Of a DNA stretch of 64,000 nt, positions 5,082 through 11,750 are shown piece after piece (within the stretch, counting starts at the first letter, position 1; every line of letters begins with the position of its first letter). This DNA is from Haladaptatus sp. QDMS2 (GTDB lineage Archaea; Halobacteriota; Halobacteria; Halobacteriales; Halococcaceae): NCBI RefSeq assembly GCF_029338295.1, contig NZ_CP119791.1:1178001-1242000 (forward strand). The letters run 5' to 3'. The notes under the pieces were generated by a model. That model had not been told where the DNA came from and made no database searches. It saw only the letters and a program-made list of their open reading frames with translations. A program made the position numbers and the translations under genes.

Positions 5082-6499
5082 ACTTCAGCCACCTCCTTTA
5101 AATCGCGAACGTCAGTGACCTCGCCGGTCACCGCCGCTGCCACGACCATCTCGGGGCTCATGAGGACGGTCCGCCCGTCCTTGCTCCCCTGTCGACCGAT
5201 GAAGTTCCGGTTCGACGACGAGGCGGAGGCTTCGTCGCCCTCCAGTTGGTCGTCGTTCATCCCGAGACACATCGAACAGCCAGCCTGCCGCCATTCGAAG
5301 CCGGCCTCGCGGAAGATTTCGTCCAAGCCTTCGGCCTCGGCCGCGGTTTTCACGCGCTGGCTGCCGGGGACGACCATCGCCCGGACGTCCGGGTGCACCT
5401 GCCGACCCTCGACAATTTTCGCCGCCGCGCGCAGATCGGGCAGGCGGGCGTTCGTACAGCTACCGAGGAAGGCCACGTCGATTTTGTAGCCTTCCATCGT
5501 CTCACCGGGTTCGACGCCCATGTGCGCCTGACTCATCCGAGCCGTGTCCTGCTTGTCCGCAGGCAGGTCCTCGGGGGCGGGAACTGGCTGTTTGATGCCG
5601 ACGCCTTGACCGGGGGTGGTCCCCCACGTCACGGTCGGTTCGATTTCCGAGCCGTCGATGGTGACCACGTCGTCGTACTCGGCGTCGTCGTCGGAGCGAA
5701 TCGCCTCCCAGTACTGCTTCAGGCGCTCGAACTTCTCCGGATTATCTGCGAAGGCGTCCGTCTCGCGCAGGTACTCGTAGGTGGTCTCGTCGGGATTGAC
5801 GTACCCCGCACGCGCACCGCCCTCGATGGACATGTTGCAGACGCTCATCCGTCCCTCCATGTCGAGGCTCTCGATGGCCTCGCCCGCGTACTCGTAGACG
5901 TAGCCGACGCCGCCGTCGGTGCCGAGTTCGCTGATGATGGTGAGGACGACGTCCTTCGCGGTGACGCTCTCGCCGAGTTCGCCGGTGACCTCGACCTTCC
6001 GCACCTTCTTTTTCTCCATCGCCACGGTCTGGGTGGCGAGTACGTCGCGAATCTGCGAGGTGCCAATACCGAACGCCAGTGCACCGAACGCACCGTGCGT
6101 GGACGTGTGGCTGTCACCGCAGACAATGGTCGTTCCGGGCTGGGTGAGTCCCTGCTCCGGCCCGATGACGTGGACGATGCCCTGGTTCCCGGAGTTCGGG
6201 TCTGCGAACTGGATGCCAGCGTCGCGGACGTTTTCCTCCAGTTCGCTCATCATCTCCTCTGCGGCGTCGTCGGCGAACGGCCGCGACTGGTCCGCCGTCG
6301 GGACGATGTGGTCAACCGTCGCGTAGGTGCGCTCCGGGTAGGCGACCTCGAGGTCGCGTTCTCTGAGCATGCCGAATGCCTGCGGACTCGTCACCTCGTG
6401 GATGAGGTGGAGGCCGACGAACAACTGGTCTTGTCCGTTGGGCAGCGTCGTCACCTTGTGGCGGTCCCACACCTTGTCGTACAGCGTTCCCTCACTCAT
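5078..6499 (-). CDS. leuC: 3-isopropylmalate dehydratase, large subunit
   Basis: The 473-residue protein begins [16 protein letters not shown] and has the [4Fe-4S] cluster cysteines in '[10 protein letters not shown]' and in '[10 protein letters not shown]' (CxxC), plus the '[20 protein letters not shown]' block. It is a complete bacterial-type LeuC and works with the adjacent LeuD. It overlaps the 74-residue ORF upstream by eight bases and leuD downstream by four, inside the single minus-strand ilv-leu operon. Confidence 0.95.
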
Positions 6500-6716
6500 C
6501 GTCGTCTACGTCGGGTCCGCGCTCGAAGACGGGGTTGGCCCCCTCTCCGTTCGGCGGTTCGTGGTCTACGTCTTTCATCTTCTCCGGCTCCTCCTCGCGT
6601 TCCGGGTCGTGCCCGCCGTCGGTGATGACGACGCCTCGTCGGTACACCATCCCCTCGCCGAACGATTTGCCGGTGTAGGGGTTCGTGTGACTGATCTCCT
6701 TCATCGTCTTACGCAT
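6492..6716 (-). CDS. Small acidic protein of unknown function within the ilv-leu operon
   Basis: This 74-residue protein (70 if the second ATG at 6704 is used) contains '[16 protein letters not shown]' and '[18 protein letters not shown]', then a very acidic proline/aspartate-rich tail ending DVDDDE. It sits between ilvC and leuC, overlapping both by eight bases, so it must be translated with them. I know no enzyme of branched-chain amino acid synthesis with this sequence. It could be an assembly or stabilising factor for IlvC or LeuCD (inference only). Confidence 0.75.
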
Positions 6717-7764: not shown

Positions 7765-8420
7765 TGGTCTGAATTTGGGGTGGAGTTTGCTGGTGCGGTG
7801 CTCTCTGCTGAGGCGGCGGGCGACTCACCCGGAGTCGTCGGGGTGTCGCCGCGCGCCAGTGCGGTCTGGCCCGTCCGGGCGATTTCGATGATGCCGAACT
7901 GACGGAACGCATCGACGGCGTCGTCGATTTTCCGCTGGTCGCCAGTTATCTGGACGGTGATGGTTCGGGGACCGGCGTCTAACGTCTGACCCTCGTACAT
8001 CTGGGTGATGGCGTGGACCTTGTCCGGTTCGTGGCCTTGGACTTTGAGCAAGACCAGTTCCGCGCGGACGGCGTCCGTGCCGAGTTCGCCGACGGCGATG
8101 GATGGTTTCAGCTTCGCCAGTTGCTTCTTTATCTGGTCGATGCCCGCGTCCGTCTCCTCGACGACGAGGGTGATGCGGGCGTGGCCGTCGACCGTCGTCG
8201 GGCCGACGGTCAGGCTCTCGATGTTGAACTGGCGGCGGCTGAACAGCCCGGAGACGAGCGACAGCACGCCGGGTTCGTGTTCGACGAGCGCGGAGACGGT
8301 CGCCTGTCGCGTCTCCTGTGCTGCCTCCGCAACCGGGTCGATACGCTCGCCCTGGGCGTTGCGTCTGCCGTCTGGGTGCGGTCGTTCCTCTGGTCGTGGG
8401 CCTTGCAGTCCTTGCGTCAT
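7761..8420 (-). CDS. ilvN: Acetolactate synthase, small (regulatory) subunit
   Basis: This 219-residue protein has an ACT domain at about residues 38-115 ('[30 protein letters not shown]' region), followed by the IlvN C-terminal domain with '[10 protein letters not shown]' near residue 140. In bacteria this subunit binds valine and sets feedback inhibition of IlvB. The first 35 residues and the last 35 (Ala/Thr/Pro-rich) are extensions beyond the family core. It overlaps ilvB and ilvC by four bases each. Confidence 0.93.
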
Positions 8421-10177
8421 AGCTGGTCCTCCGAGAGGGCGAACAGGCCGTTCGCACCGCCGCTCGCGACCATTGGGTAGACGTTCGCGCCGGGGTCGAT
8501 GTGGAAGTCGATGACCGAGGGGCCGTCGTAATCAAGGGCAGCCTCGATGGTGTCCGCGACTTCGTCGTATTCGTCGACGCGGAAGCCTTTCGCGCCGAAC
8601 GCCTCTGCCAGTTTGTCGAACTCGGGACACCAGCCGTAGTCGGAGGCTGAGTGGCGACCTTCGAAGAAGGCGTCCTGCCACTGGCGGACCATGCCGATGT
8701 ACTTGTTGTTGAGCACACAGACGGTGATGTCCATGTTGTCACGGACGGCCACCGAGAGTTCCTGGAGCGTCATCAGGAAGGAGCCGTCTCCCTCGAAACT
8801 GACGACGGCCTGGTCCTCGCGGGCGGCTAGTCGCGCGCCGATGGCGGCGGGCAGGCCGTAGCCCATCGTGCCGAGGCCGTGGGAGGAAACCCACGTCCGC
8901 GGTTCCGTGTAGGTCCAGTACTGGACGGCCCACATTTGGTGCTGGCCGACGCCGGTGGTGACGATGGTGTCCGCGTCCGTCGCGGCGTCCATCGCCTCGA
9001 CGACGAACTGCGGTTTGAGCGGTTCGTCGTCTGGCGTCCCGTAGTCCATCGGATACTCGGTTTTCCAGGTCTGACACTGTTCGCGCCACTCGTCTGCGTC
9101 CGGTTCGCCCGGTATCGCTTCGTGGAGTCGCGAGAGCGCGGTCCCCGCGTCACCGATGACGGGGTAGTCCGCGTAGACGTTCTTCGAGATTTCCGCCGGG
9201 TCGATGTCGATGTGGATGATTTCGGCCTCGGGGGCGAACGTGTCCACGCCACCGGTCAGACGGTCGTCGAAGCGCGTCCCGACGGCGAGCATCACGTCGC
9301 AGTGGGTGATGGCCATGTTGGCGTAGCCAGTGCCGTGCATCCCGGCCATCTCCATCGAAAGTTCGTGGTCCTCGGGGAACGCGCCCACGGCGGGCATCGT
9401 CGTGACGACTGGAATCTCGTGGGCGATTGCGAACTCGCGCAACTCCGCCGTTGCGTTCGCCTTGATGACGCCGCCACCGGCGAGGATGACGGGTTTCTCG
9501 GCGTTCGCGAGCGCTGTCGCAGCAGTCTCGACTGCTTCGTCGTCCGGGTCCGTCCGGGGATTGTAGGTCGATGGCGTGCGCGCAGGGCCGGGCTCGCGGT
9601 CGGTCGGCGCGTTCGTCACGTCTTTCGGGAGGTCGACGAGCGTCGGCCCCTGTCGGCCCGTCGCGGCCATGGCGAACGCTTCGCCGACCACGTCGCCGAC
9701 GGTGTCCGTGTCCGAGGCGAAGTAGTTCGCCTTGGTGATGGGCGCGGTGACGCCCGTGGTGTCCGTCTCCTGGAAGGCGTCTGAGCCGACCATGTCGGAC
9801 GGAACCTGTCCCGTGAGCGCAATCATCGGGTCGGAGTCCATGCTGGCGTCCGCGATGCCGGTGACGAGGTTCGTCGCGCCGGGGCCGGAGGTGGCGAGAC
9901 ACACGCCGGGTTTCCCGGAGACGATGCCGTAGGCGTCCGCGGCGTGGGCCGCAGACTGCTCGTGGGCCATCATCACGTGCGTCATCTCTGAGTCGTACAA
10001 CGCGTCGTAGACGGGCATGATTGCGCCGCCCTGGACGCCGAACAGGTGCGTGACGCCGGCGTTTTCGAGCGCCCGAACGACGGATTGTGCGCCGTTCGTG
10101 ACGGGTTTTTGCTTCGATTGCTCTGGTGGCTGTTCCTCGGTCGGTTCCTGATACGAGGAGGTTGCACGTTCGCTCAT
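8417..10177 (-). CDS. ilvB: Acetolactate synthase, large (catalytic) subunit
   Basis: This 586-residue thiamine-diphosphate enzyme has the catalytic glutamate Glu73 in 'MMAHEQSAAHAADAYG', the FAD/middle domain and the ThDP-binding 'GDGSFLMTLQEL ... NNKYIGM' block near the C-terminus. It condenses two pyruvates to acetolactate (or pyruvate with 2-oxobutyrate). About 30 hydrophilic residues precede the conserved core. A strong AGGAGG ribosome binding site (about 10185-10190, minus strand) precedes the ATG, unlike the leaderless genes nearby, as expected for a gene behind a transcribed leader of roughly 210 bases. Confidence 0.94.
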   Translation of the reverse strand: MSERATSSYQEPTEEQPPEQSKQKPVTNGAQSVVRALENAGVTHLFGVQGGAIMPVYDALYDSEMTHVMMAHEQSAAHAADAYGIVSGKPGVCLATSGPGATNLVTGIADASMDSDPMIALTGQVPSDMVGSDAFQETDTTGVTAPITKANYFASDTDTVGDVVGEAFAMAATGRQGPTLVDLPKDVTNAPTDREPGPARTPSTYNPRTDPDDEAVETAATALANAEKPVILAGGGVIKANATAELREFAIAHEIPVVTTMPAVGAFPEDHELSMEMAGMHGTGYANMAITHCDVMLAVGTRFDDRLTGGVDTFAPEAEIIHIDIDPAEISKNVYADYPVIGDAGTALSRLHEAIPGEPDADEWREQCQTWKTEYPMDYGTPDDEPLKPQFVVEAMDAATDADTIVTTGVGQHQMWAVQYWTYTEPRTWVSSHGLGTMGYGLPAAIGARLAAREDQAVVSFEGDGSFLMTLQELSVAVRDNMDITVCVLNNKYIGMVRQWQDAFFEGRHSASDYGWCPEFDKLAEAFGAKGFRVDEYDEVADTIEAALDYDGPSVIDFHIDPGANVYPMVASGGANGLFALSEDQL

Positions 10178-10277
10178 GTGTGGGCCTCCTGTGGTGGTGT
10201 CGGTCGTCGGTTCATCTGTCGTGTCGTGGTCGCAGGGGTCATCGGGATAGCGAGTGCTGGTGCTTCGAAGTCAGTGC

Positions 10278-10282
10278 AAAAA
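10278..10282 (-). terminator. U5 tract in the ilvB leader
   Basis: The minus-strand transcript carries five U residues about 17 bases after the leader hairpin and about 100 bases before ilvB. Archaeal polymerase can terminate at such tracts, so it is a candidate attenuation point. Five T is near the lower limit for an efficient terminator. Confidence 0.3.
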
Positions 10283-10298
10283 TCGGTGGAAATGGGGG

Positions 10299-10319
10299 TA
10301 GGTAGGGGAGCTAGACCCC
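10299..10319 (-). promoter_or_regulatory. Hairpin spanning the leader-peptide stop codon
   Basis: On the minus strand GTAGGGG is followed by a seven-base loop containing the TAG stop and then CCCCTAC, a perfect seven-base-pair stem. The left arm is the last Val-Gly codons of the leader peptide. A ribosome at the end of the leader would prevent this stem from forming. Downstream C-rich sequence (TACCCCC) offers a competing partner for the GGGG arm. Confidence 0.55.
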
Positions 10320-10388
10320 TACAATAATGAGCTGGACCGCAGCACCGCTCGTCGCCTGCGATTGCGTGGTGGCGGCGAGTGCCTGCAT
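10311..10388 (-). CDS. Candidate ilvB leader peptide rich in Val/Leu/Ile codons at its end
   Basis: A 25-codon ORF starts with ATG at 10388, about 26-32 bases after a TATA box, so the mRNA should begin at or next to this ATG. The peptide starts MQALAATTQSQ and ends AAVQLIIVGV before TAG: six of its last eight residues are Val, Leu or Ile, the products of the operon it precedes. The last codons and the stop lie in an inverted repeat (GTAGGGG and CCCCTAC). This is the build of a bacterial ivbL/ilvB attenuator peptide. I know of no described archaeal case, so the assignment rests on the pattern alone. Confidence 0.65.
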   Translation of the reverse strand: MQALAATTQSQATSGAAVQLIIVGV

Positions 10389-10413
10389 TAGTAGACCGAT
10401 ATGTGACGCTCCC

Positions 10414-10420
10414 ATTATAA
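10414..10420 (-). promoter_or_regulatory. TATA box of the ilvBNC-leuCDB operon
   Basis: Minus-strand TTATAAT lies 26-32 bases upstream of the ATG at 10388. This is the normal archaeal TATA position for a transcript starting at that ATG, so the operon mRNA probably begins with the leader peptide codon itself. Confidence 0.65.
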
Positions 10421-10502
10421 CTGTTGTGCGTTGTGCAAACCTTGCTCACTTTACGGTCGTTCACGCGACGCTCGACAGCAGCAAAATCGCAGGCGGGCAT
10501 GG

Positions 10503-11750
10503 TCAGGCTCTGACCTCCGACTGTTCTTTGACGCCCACCTCACGGGCGAACCGAATCAGCACGTCGTCGGTGACCTGCTGTTTCTCCGCGCCGAAGTCCT
10601 TGACCTTTCGCGTGACCGCTCGCACCTGCTCGTCGGTCGGGTCGAACCCTTCCTCGTGCAGGCGCTTGCGGACGGAGTGGGTCCCGGTGTGTTTCCCCAT
10701 CACCAGTTCGCGCGTCGCGCCGACCATCTCCGGCGTCATCACGCCGGGTTCGAACGTCGAGGCGTTCTCGATGACGCCCGCGGCGTGAATGCCACTCTCG
10801 TGGGCGAAGGCGTTCTTGCCCACGACGGGTTTGTTCGCCGGTATCGGCACGTCGCTGCACTCTTCTACGATTTTCGCAATTTTCGTAATCTGCCTGGTGT
10901 CGATGCCGGTATCGACTCCGTACAGGCTCTCTGCGGCCATGACGACTTCTTCGTAGGCGGCGTTCCCGGCGCGTTCGCCGATGCCGTTGACGGAGACCTG
11001 CGCCTGGTGGGCACCGGCCTCGAACCCGGCGATGGCGTTCGCCGTCGCCAACCCGAAGTCGTCGTGGGTGTGGACATCCACGCGGGCGTCCGTGTGGGCG
11101 ACCACGTCGGCAACCAAATTGGCCATCCGCGTGGGCGTCGCCACCCCACAGGTGTCGGGAATGTTAATCCAGTCAGTGCCAGCCTCGCTCACAGCTTCCA
11201 CGACCTCGATGAGGAAGTCGTGGTTCGTTCGCGTCGCGTCCATCGGTGAGTACATCACCGTGACGCCGGCCTCCTTCGCACGCTCGACCGCGTCGACGGA
11301 GCGCTGTTTGGCTTCCGCGCGAGTGGCGTGCATGGAGTCTTCGAGCTGGATGTCGCTGGTCGACGAGAAGACGTGAACCATCTCCACGCCTGCGTCCAGC
11401 GCAGCCTCGATATCTTTGTCGACGACCCGCGCCAGTCCACACGTCGTTGTGCGCGTGCTCTCTGCGATGTCGCGGACGGCCTCGAACTCTGCGTCCGAGT
11501 TGACCGGGAAGCCCGTCTCGATGACGTGGGTTCCCATGTCGTCCAACGCCGCCGCTATCTCGCGTTTGTCATCGTACGAGAAGGACGTGCGTGGAGTCTG
11601 CTCTCCATCGCGGAGCGTGGTGTCGAAAATCCGTACCGTGTCTATCTCGGGGGCGGAGGTGTTAGTTAACGTGCCCTCGAAGAACTCGACCCGCCGTCTG
11701 AGACGACGTTTCCTCGGTATGTCGGTGAGACATTGTATCGCAACCAACAA
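10503..11750 (-). CDS. leuA: 2-isopropylmalate synthase (short form); start codon uncertain
   Basis: The enzyme has 'RIFDTTLRDGEQTPRTSF', 'ETGFPVNSDAEFEAV', the metal-binding 'VDVHTHDDFG' and 'GIGERAGNAAYEE', which define the alpha-isopropylmalate/homocitrate synthase family. It condenses acetyl-CoA with 2-oxoisovalerate. At about 400 residues it ends soon after the catalytic and linker domains, so the C-terminal LeuA regulatory domain (leucine feedback) is absent. The start is a problem: the only upstream in-frame starts are TTG codons at 11750 and 11747, which lie upstream of the transcription start predicted from the TATA box, and no ATG, GTG or TTG occurs in frame between there and the catalytic motif. 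A related role (homocitrate or citramalate synthase) cannot be fully excluded. Confidence 0.88.
   Translation of the reverse strand: MLVAIQCLTDIPRKRRLRRRVEFFEGTLTNTSAPEIDTVRIFDTTLRDGEQTPRTSFSYDDKREIAAALDDMGTHVIETGFPVNSDAEFEAVRDIAESTRTTTCGLARVVDKDIEAALDAGVEMVHVFSSTSDIQLEDSMHATRAEAKQRSVDAVERAKEAGVTVMYSPMDATRTNHDFLIEVVEAVSEAGTDWINIPDTCGVATPTRMANLVADVVAHTDARVDVHTHDDFGLATANAIAGFEAGAHQAQVSVNGIGERAGNAAYEEVVMAAESLYGVDTGIDTRQITKIAKIVEECSDVPIPANKPVVGKNAFAHESGIHAAGVIENASTFEPGVMTPEMVGATRELVMGKHTGTHSVRKRLHEEGFDPTDEQVRAVTRKVKDFGAEKQQVTDDVLIRFAREVGVKEQSEVRA
11662..11733 (-). CDS. Leaderless 23-codon ORF overlapping the leuA 5' end
   Basis: An ATG at 11733 sits 27-33 bases after the TATA box TTATATA, the same spacing as the leader ORF before ilvB. 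The ORF encodes a 23-residue basic peptide beginning MSHRHTEETSS and ending GRVLRGHVN before TAA. It occupies the frame one base away from LeuA and overlaps the segment where LeuA must begin. It is not rich in leucine. It may be a regulatory upstream ORF, or the real N-terminus of LeuA joined by a +1 frameshift. Confidence 0.5.
   Translation of the reverse strand: MSHRHTEETSSQTAGRVLRGHVN

Follow-up and report, generated by a model that had tools for sequence, protein, structure and literature searches.

The DNA that we analyzed is a 64,000-nt window from Haladaptatus sp. QDMS2 (NZ_CP119791.1, 1,178,001-1,242,000). Coordinates are those of the window, and all features are on its minus strand. 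The window contains an operon for branched-chain amino acid (BCAA) biosynthesis, in which ilvB is followed by ilvN, ilvC, leuC, leuD, and a leuB-like dehydrogenase, and leuA lies upstream of ilvB (NCBIfam assignments). Between the leuA stop codon (10503-10505) and the ilvB start codon is a short ORF, uORF1, which starts with the ATG at 10388 and has the C-terminus LIIVGV. The features of this region are:

10174-10500, minus strand: ORF-X, a putative translation bridge; its ATG is 2 nt after the leuA stop and its stop overlaps the ilvB ATG (ATGA)
10414-10420, minus strand: TATA box TTATAAT of the putative internal ilvB promoter, beginning 32 nt before the leader ATG
10311-10388, minus strand: uORF1, a putative leaderless leader ORF of 25 codons, MQALAATTQSQATSGAAVQLIIVGV and a TAG stop; its frame is conserved and its body lacks amino-acid selection
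10320-10325, minus strand: candidate regulatory codons ATT GTA (Ile-Val)
10302-10322, minus strand: predicted hairpin GTAGGGG / CCCCTAC; the stop codon of uORF1 lies in its loop
10284-10308, minus strand: C/U-rich, G-poor tract directly 3' of the hairpin
10278-10282, minus strand: T5 tract
10174-10242, minus strand: uORF2, from an internal ATG in the frame of ORF-X, ending with ATGA on the ilvB start
10185-10190, minus strand: Shine-Dalgarno (SD) sequence AGGAGG of ilvB
8417-10177, minus strand: ilvB, acetolactate synthase large subunit (TIGR00118, E = 5.1e-214)

An earlier note on this DNA had pointed out the TATA box, the 25-codon ORF at 10388 with its TAG, the hairpin, and the AGGAGG site, and all of these are present. 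Its gap of about 130 bases before ilvB is 133 nt by our measurement. It overlooked the bridge ORF that overlaps the leader, and also the arrangement at leuA that we describe below. No Rfam covariance model matched the leader up to E = 1. The genome (3.88 Mb) has a single match to the hairpin and codon motif ATYGTAGGGG-N3-12-CCCC, located at the ilvB leader, and a reversed-pattern control had no matches.

To compare this region across relatives, we collected ilvB loci from a set of genome contigs and from 60 related genomes, which yielded 107 distinct haloarchaeal upstream regions. These loci were picked by the similarity of ilvB and are related to each other, so they cannot be counted as independent events, and counts of changes on the ilvB tree are safer. 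A second set comprised 20 additional, more divergent ilvB loci.

A leaderless Ile/Val leader ORF with a hairpin is conserved across the Halobacteria. All 107 loci have a short leader ORF that ends with (I/V)VG, then Ala or Val, and then a stop codon. The earlier note had proposed that the ORF was a BCAA leader peptide and had named related genomes without any ILV-rich ORF at this position as a refutation; the comparison spoke for its proposal. An AT-rich element begins at about -32 in nearly all of the loci. If the ATG is chosen solely by its distance from this element, with the ORF playing no part in the choice, then it shares its frame with the GTA codon, and no stop intervenes, in 105 of 107 loci. 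The ATG lies 20 to 50 codons from the GTA. We counted at least 40 changes in the length of uORF1 on the ilvB tree, and every one of them is a multiple of three. Also, the body contains no stops among 2,261 codons in the leader frame. The body of the peptide is not conserved: substitution rates are flat over the three codon positions (0.123, 0.161, and 0.153, as compared to 0.045, 0.032, and 0.243 in leuA). A preserved frame with a freely varying peptide body is expected for a leader ORF and not for a small protein. The conservation of the frame suggests that uORF1 is translated. One group of loci has five extra residues after the C-terminal motif.

Among the more divergent loci, 14 of 20 have the leader ORF. 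In L115, L125, and L122, the residue before GTA is Leu, Val, or Phe instead of Ile, and the stop codon of uORF1 varies (TAG, TAA, or TGA). The leader is missing from six loci: L116, L117, L119, and L120, which belong to the most divergent lineages, and two others, one of which (L132) is a second copy of ilvB. In the Haloferax loci of our sample, the leaders are 33 amino acids long.

The codons at the end of uORF1 are unusual. The valine codon is GTA in 107/107 leaders, and GTA makes up just 0.5% of the valine codons in ilvB from the same genomes. Preceding it is ATT (95 loci), ATC (11), or GTA (1), which is isoleucine in 106 cases and valine in one; ATT occupies this position in 89% of the leaders versus 8% of the isoleucine codons in ilvB. 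Two to four BCAA codons adjoin the hairpin in each leader. Neither GTA nor the GGG after it is ever replaced by a synonym.

In the window, the hairpin has perfect 7-bp arms (10322-10316 and 10308-10302) and a 7-nt loop. GTAGGGG is invariant across the 107 distinct loci. The predicted pairing probability averages 0.95 and is above 0.5 in 101 of 106 loci, and the folding z is around -4. The inner C-G pair is replaced by T-A in six loci and the loop is 5, 6, 7, or 8 nt long, which favors a hairpin in the RNA over an operator in the DNA; we rejected an operator because the spacing of the half-sites varies. The GGGG/CCCC stem explains the invariance of GGG, but pairing does not explain the invariance of GTA: the outer pairs from its G, T, and A form in 60, 31, and 61 of the 107 loci, so its U is paired in just 31 of them. 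Downstream of the hairpin, G content is just 3-5% at +18 to +29 from the GTA.

The earlier note had described the locus as a bacterial-style leader. The conserved leaderless ORF, the Ile/Val codons at its end, and the preserved frame all fit this description; a U-tract terminator and a switch between alternative folds are not supported. The T5 tract is present at 10282-10278 in the window, and its position is not conserved in relatives. Runs of at least four T after the hairpin are found in 45/107 loci, as compared to about 8 expected by shuffling, and these are mostly 50-65 nt from the GTA instead of adjoining the hairpin, so we rejected an intrinsic terminator formed by the hairpin and U5. 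We found no recurrent partner for either arm of the hairpin across the loci, as would be expected for an antiterminator helix. Sequestration of the SD by the C/U tract was also rejected: duplexes with the native tract come to -9.85 kcal/mol versus -9.81 kcal/mol for swapped tracts, and shuffled tracts pair better. Similarly, the state of the hairpin leaves the predicted accessibility of the ilvB SD unchanged. Overall, the locus has the short ORF between promoter and operon, the end-product codons near its end, and the hairpin at those codons that characterize leader attenuation, and it lacks mutually exclusive folds and a U-run terminator. It differs from the textbook attenuator of bacteria, given that there is neither a conserved U-run nor a fold that would act as an antiterminator or sequester the SD.

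The same stretch of DNA is also open in another frame. ORF-X spans the ilvB promoter, uORF1 (which is in a different frame), and the hairpin. In 93 of 105 loci, this frame is open from an ATG no more than 4 nt away from the stop codon of leuA to the start of ilvB, mostly with an ATGA overlap; a Markov null model predicts about 12 of 105. In six of the 12 exceptions, ORF-X instead ends with ATGA on the start of uORF2, and uORF2 itself ends with ATGA on ilvB. Within the promoter stretch, the ORF-X frame has no stops in 2,033 codons, while the other frames have 31 and 63. The distance from the hairpin to ilvB has a constant phase in 94 of 107 loci, and on the tree it underwent at least 79 length changes with just 13 changes of phase. 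ATGs that are 3' of the hairpin are concentrated in this frame as well (107, versus 8 and 16 in the other two), and the ATG of uORF2 is at +77 to +122 in most loci. As with uORF1, the substitution rates of ORF-X are flat over the codon positions, and ORF-X has no match in Pfam or NCBIfam.

One of the two other frames meets a stop codon in GTAG and the other is closed by the end of uORF1, so the ORF-X frame is the sole route across the hairpin for ribosomes that arrive from leuA. We infer from the preserved frame that ORF-X is kept for the act of translation: transcripts that read through from leuA would be translated, and leuA would be coupled to ilvB. The existence of a bridge suggests that leaving the hairpin region untranslated is costly. 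This fits, and lends indirect support to, an effect of the hairpin region on transcription or on decay. Stops and starts overlap at other places in the BCAA operon as well, so ORF-X might instead serve simple coupling. When we applied the same test to the ilvC-leuC gap as a comparison, it was bridged in 33 of 74 loci, but this gap is not a clean control because in the window it holds its own small ORF. That ORF (6496-6716) spans the gap and has an ATGA overlap. We also considered and rejected a -1 frameshift by which ribosomes would pass from uORF1 to ORF-X, as ATT GTA GGG lacks a slippery heptamer and ORF-X is already open from leuA.

Our best explanation is that a ribosome on the leaderless Ile/Val leader ORF senses the charging of tRNAs. 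We give this sensing step a probability of around 70%. Transcription would begin at or next to the ATG of uORF1, within the leuA-ilvB gap, and the ribosome would initiate on a leaderless 5' end, as the spacing from the TATA box to the ATG suggests. It would then meet the rare codons ATT and GTA, which lie at the foot of the GGGG/CCCC hairpin. If both tRNAs are charged, the ribosome would reach the stop codon within the loop and dissociate. The hairpin and the C/U-rich tract behind it, now exposed, would then lower expression, with premature termination (for instance by aCPSF1/FttA) or decay as the likeliest route. If charged tRNA for isoleucine or valine is scarce, the ribosome would stall on the base of the hairpin and cover it, and the operon would be expressed. 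The controlled unit would be ilvBNC-leuCDB as transcribed from the internal promoter. On transcripts that read through from leuA, ribosomes would traverse the stretch in the ORF-X frame, which is conserved, and would hand translation over to ilvB by ATGA coupling.

The sensing step could also have another read-out. Stalling or release on uORF1 might set re-initiation at uORF2, and then at ilvB via the ATGA, with transcription unaffected. The uORF2 ATG is found almost exclusively in the frame that ends with ATGA on ilvB, six loci have the double overlap from ORF-X to uORF2 to ilvB, and a U-tract terminator is absent, which all favor re-initiation. But ilvB has its own SD in most loci, the predicted accessibility of this SD does not depend on the hairpin, and the C/U tract pairs with it no better than swapped tracts do. 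We view re-initiation as a reasonable possibility with the odds against it.

Explanations that do not involve a ribosome sensing tRNA charging seem less probable. GTAGGGG is invariant beyond what pairing requires, as if a regulator bound the DNA or the RNA there and the surrounding ORF were incidental. But the spacing of the half-sites ranges from 5 to 8 nt, and an incidental ORF is not expected to hold its frame and its start while its length changed at least 40 times, so a binding site is unlikely. Slightly less likely still is an arrest peptide: as TnaC stalls the ribosome in response to tryptophan, a nascent C-terminus of IVGA or IVGV might do so in response to free valine or isoleucine. 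The conserved C-terminal I-V-G-A/V is consistent with this, but the conservation is at the level of codons and nucleotides, the residues upstream of the motif vary freely, and the group with five additional residues after the motif is hard to reconcile with arrest. Finally, it is very improbable that either uORF1 or ORF-X simply encodes a small protein: the long open frames and conserved starts would fit, but not the flat rates (0.12, 0.16, and 0.15 versus 0.05, 0.03, and 0.24 in leuA) or the lack of family matches for ORF-X.

Returning to ribosomal sensing of tRNA charging, the upstream gene leuA may be controlled by such sensing as well. Among the loci that we examined, leuA has no conserved in-frame start codon, and in all 75 loci with a candidate ATG, the TATA-linked ATG is one frame off leuA. 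In the window, this ATG begins another short ORF:

11662-11733, minus strand: putative leaderless uORF of leuA, MSHRHTEETSSQTAGRVLRGHVN and a stop codon, one frame off leuA; a +1 shift would be needed at CGA GTT CTT CGA

Where this uORF and leuA overlap, TCGAGTTCTTC is invariant in 81 of 81 loci, including at synonymous sites. Together with the out-of-frame ATG, this points to a programmed +1 frameshift at or next to the leucine codon CTT, and it seems that the expression of leuA requires such a shift. It was already reported that haloarchaeal leuA2 lacks a consistent start codon, and it was speculated that an out-of-frame ATG with slippage is used solely when leucine is lacking (PMC8305020). 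The arrangement that we describe would account for this annotation puzzle.

The LeuA of the window lacks the allosteric domain (LeuA_dimer, PF08502). Pfam identifies this domain at two of the loci that lack the leader (L116 and L119), and the LeuA sequences from L117 and L120 look the same in this respect. An attractive reading, from few lineages, is that translational control was swapped in for allosteric control. In its fullest form, our account is that sensing by ribosomes controls the whole haloarchaeal BCAA operon at two places, for leucine by a +1 frameshift at the invariant TCGAGTTCTTC of leuA and for isoleucine and valine by the ilvB leader and its hairpin; that the bridge frame joins the two and is kept only for being translated; and that this system replaced the allosteric domain that LeuA retains in neighboring, leader-less lineages. 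We consider this combined account tentative, at a little short of even odds.

Among known systems, the leaders ivbL (of ilvBN) and ilvL (of ilvGMEDA) from E. coli also have Ile/Val codons beside RNA structure upstream of a BCAA operon. Those leaders are SD-led, have many regulatory codons in a row, and use the classical 2:3 / 3:4 switch, whereas the haloarchaeal leader has fewer BCAA codons and no codon run, SD, or such switch. In tnaC-type leaders, the ribosome that stands on the stop codon of the leader hides a loading site for Rho, a bacterial factor. The haloarchaeal leader similarly has a C-rich, G-poor tract right after its stop codon, which a stalled ribosome could cover, but the candidate factor would be aCPSF1/FttA instead of Rho, and the signal would be the charging of tRNA. 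The ilvB-II motif in the ilvBNC leader of Corynebacterium is the closest parallel; it too is a short conserved ORF before ilvB with BCAA codons, lengths divisible by three, and one occurrence per genome. It has a P2 terminator stem with a U-run and an antiterminator (PMC10272879, citing Morbach 2000). The haloarchaeal leader instead has one hairpin, with no conserved U-run and no alternative helix that we could find, and it differs in its archaeal host, its TATA promoter, and the overlapping bridge ORF.

According to a 2021 paper, no attenuation or antitermination mechanism is known in archaea (PMC8448881), and judging from the open-licence literature, a ribosome-based, attenuator-like BCAA leader looks new for this domain. 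A class-wide leader-ORF sensor, in an operon that genetically tractable haloarchaea such as Haloferax also have, would open archaeal transcription-translation coupling and its regulatory use to direct tests. The bridge ORF is unusual as well, as its frame is preserved and no protein is.

Some long 5'-UTRs of haloarchaea were already known to begin with a short ORF. A table of 16 such uORFs from dRNA-seq of H. volcanii does not include ilvB; the list is limited to ORFs of 15-31 amino acids in UTRs of 150-250 nt (PMC4983044, Table 2), and the 33-residue leaders of our Haloferax loci exceed that size. In contrast to the ilvB leader, those uORFs were described without regulatory codons or conservation. 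In 11 other genomes, we did not find a conserved leaderless uORF before pheS or trpE, which we count in favor of our reading of the ilvB leader. The H. volcanii genes with uORFs in that table include pheS (26 amino acids) and the gene for tryptophan-tRNA ligase (23 amino acids).
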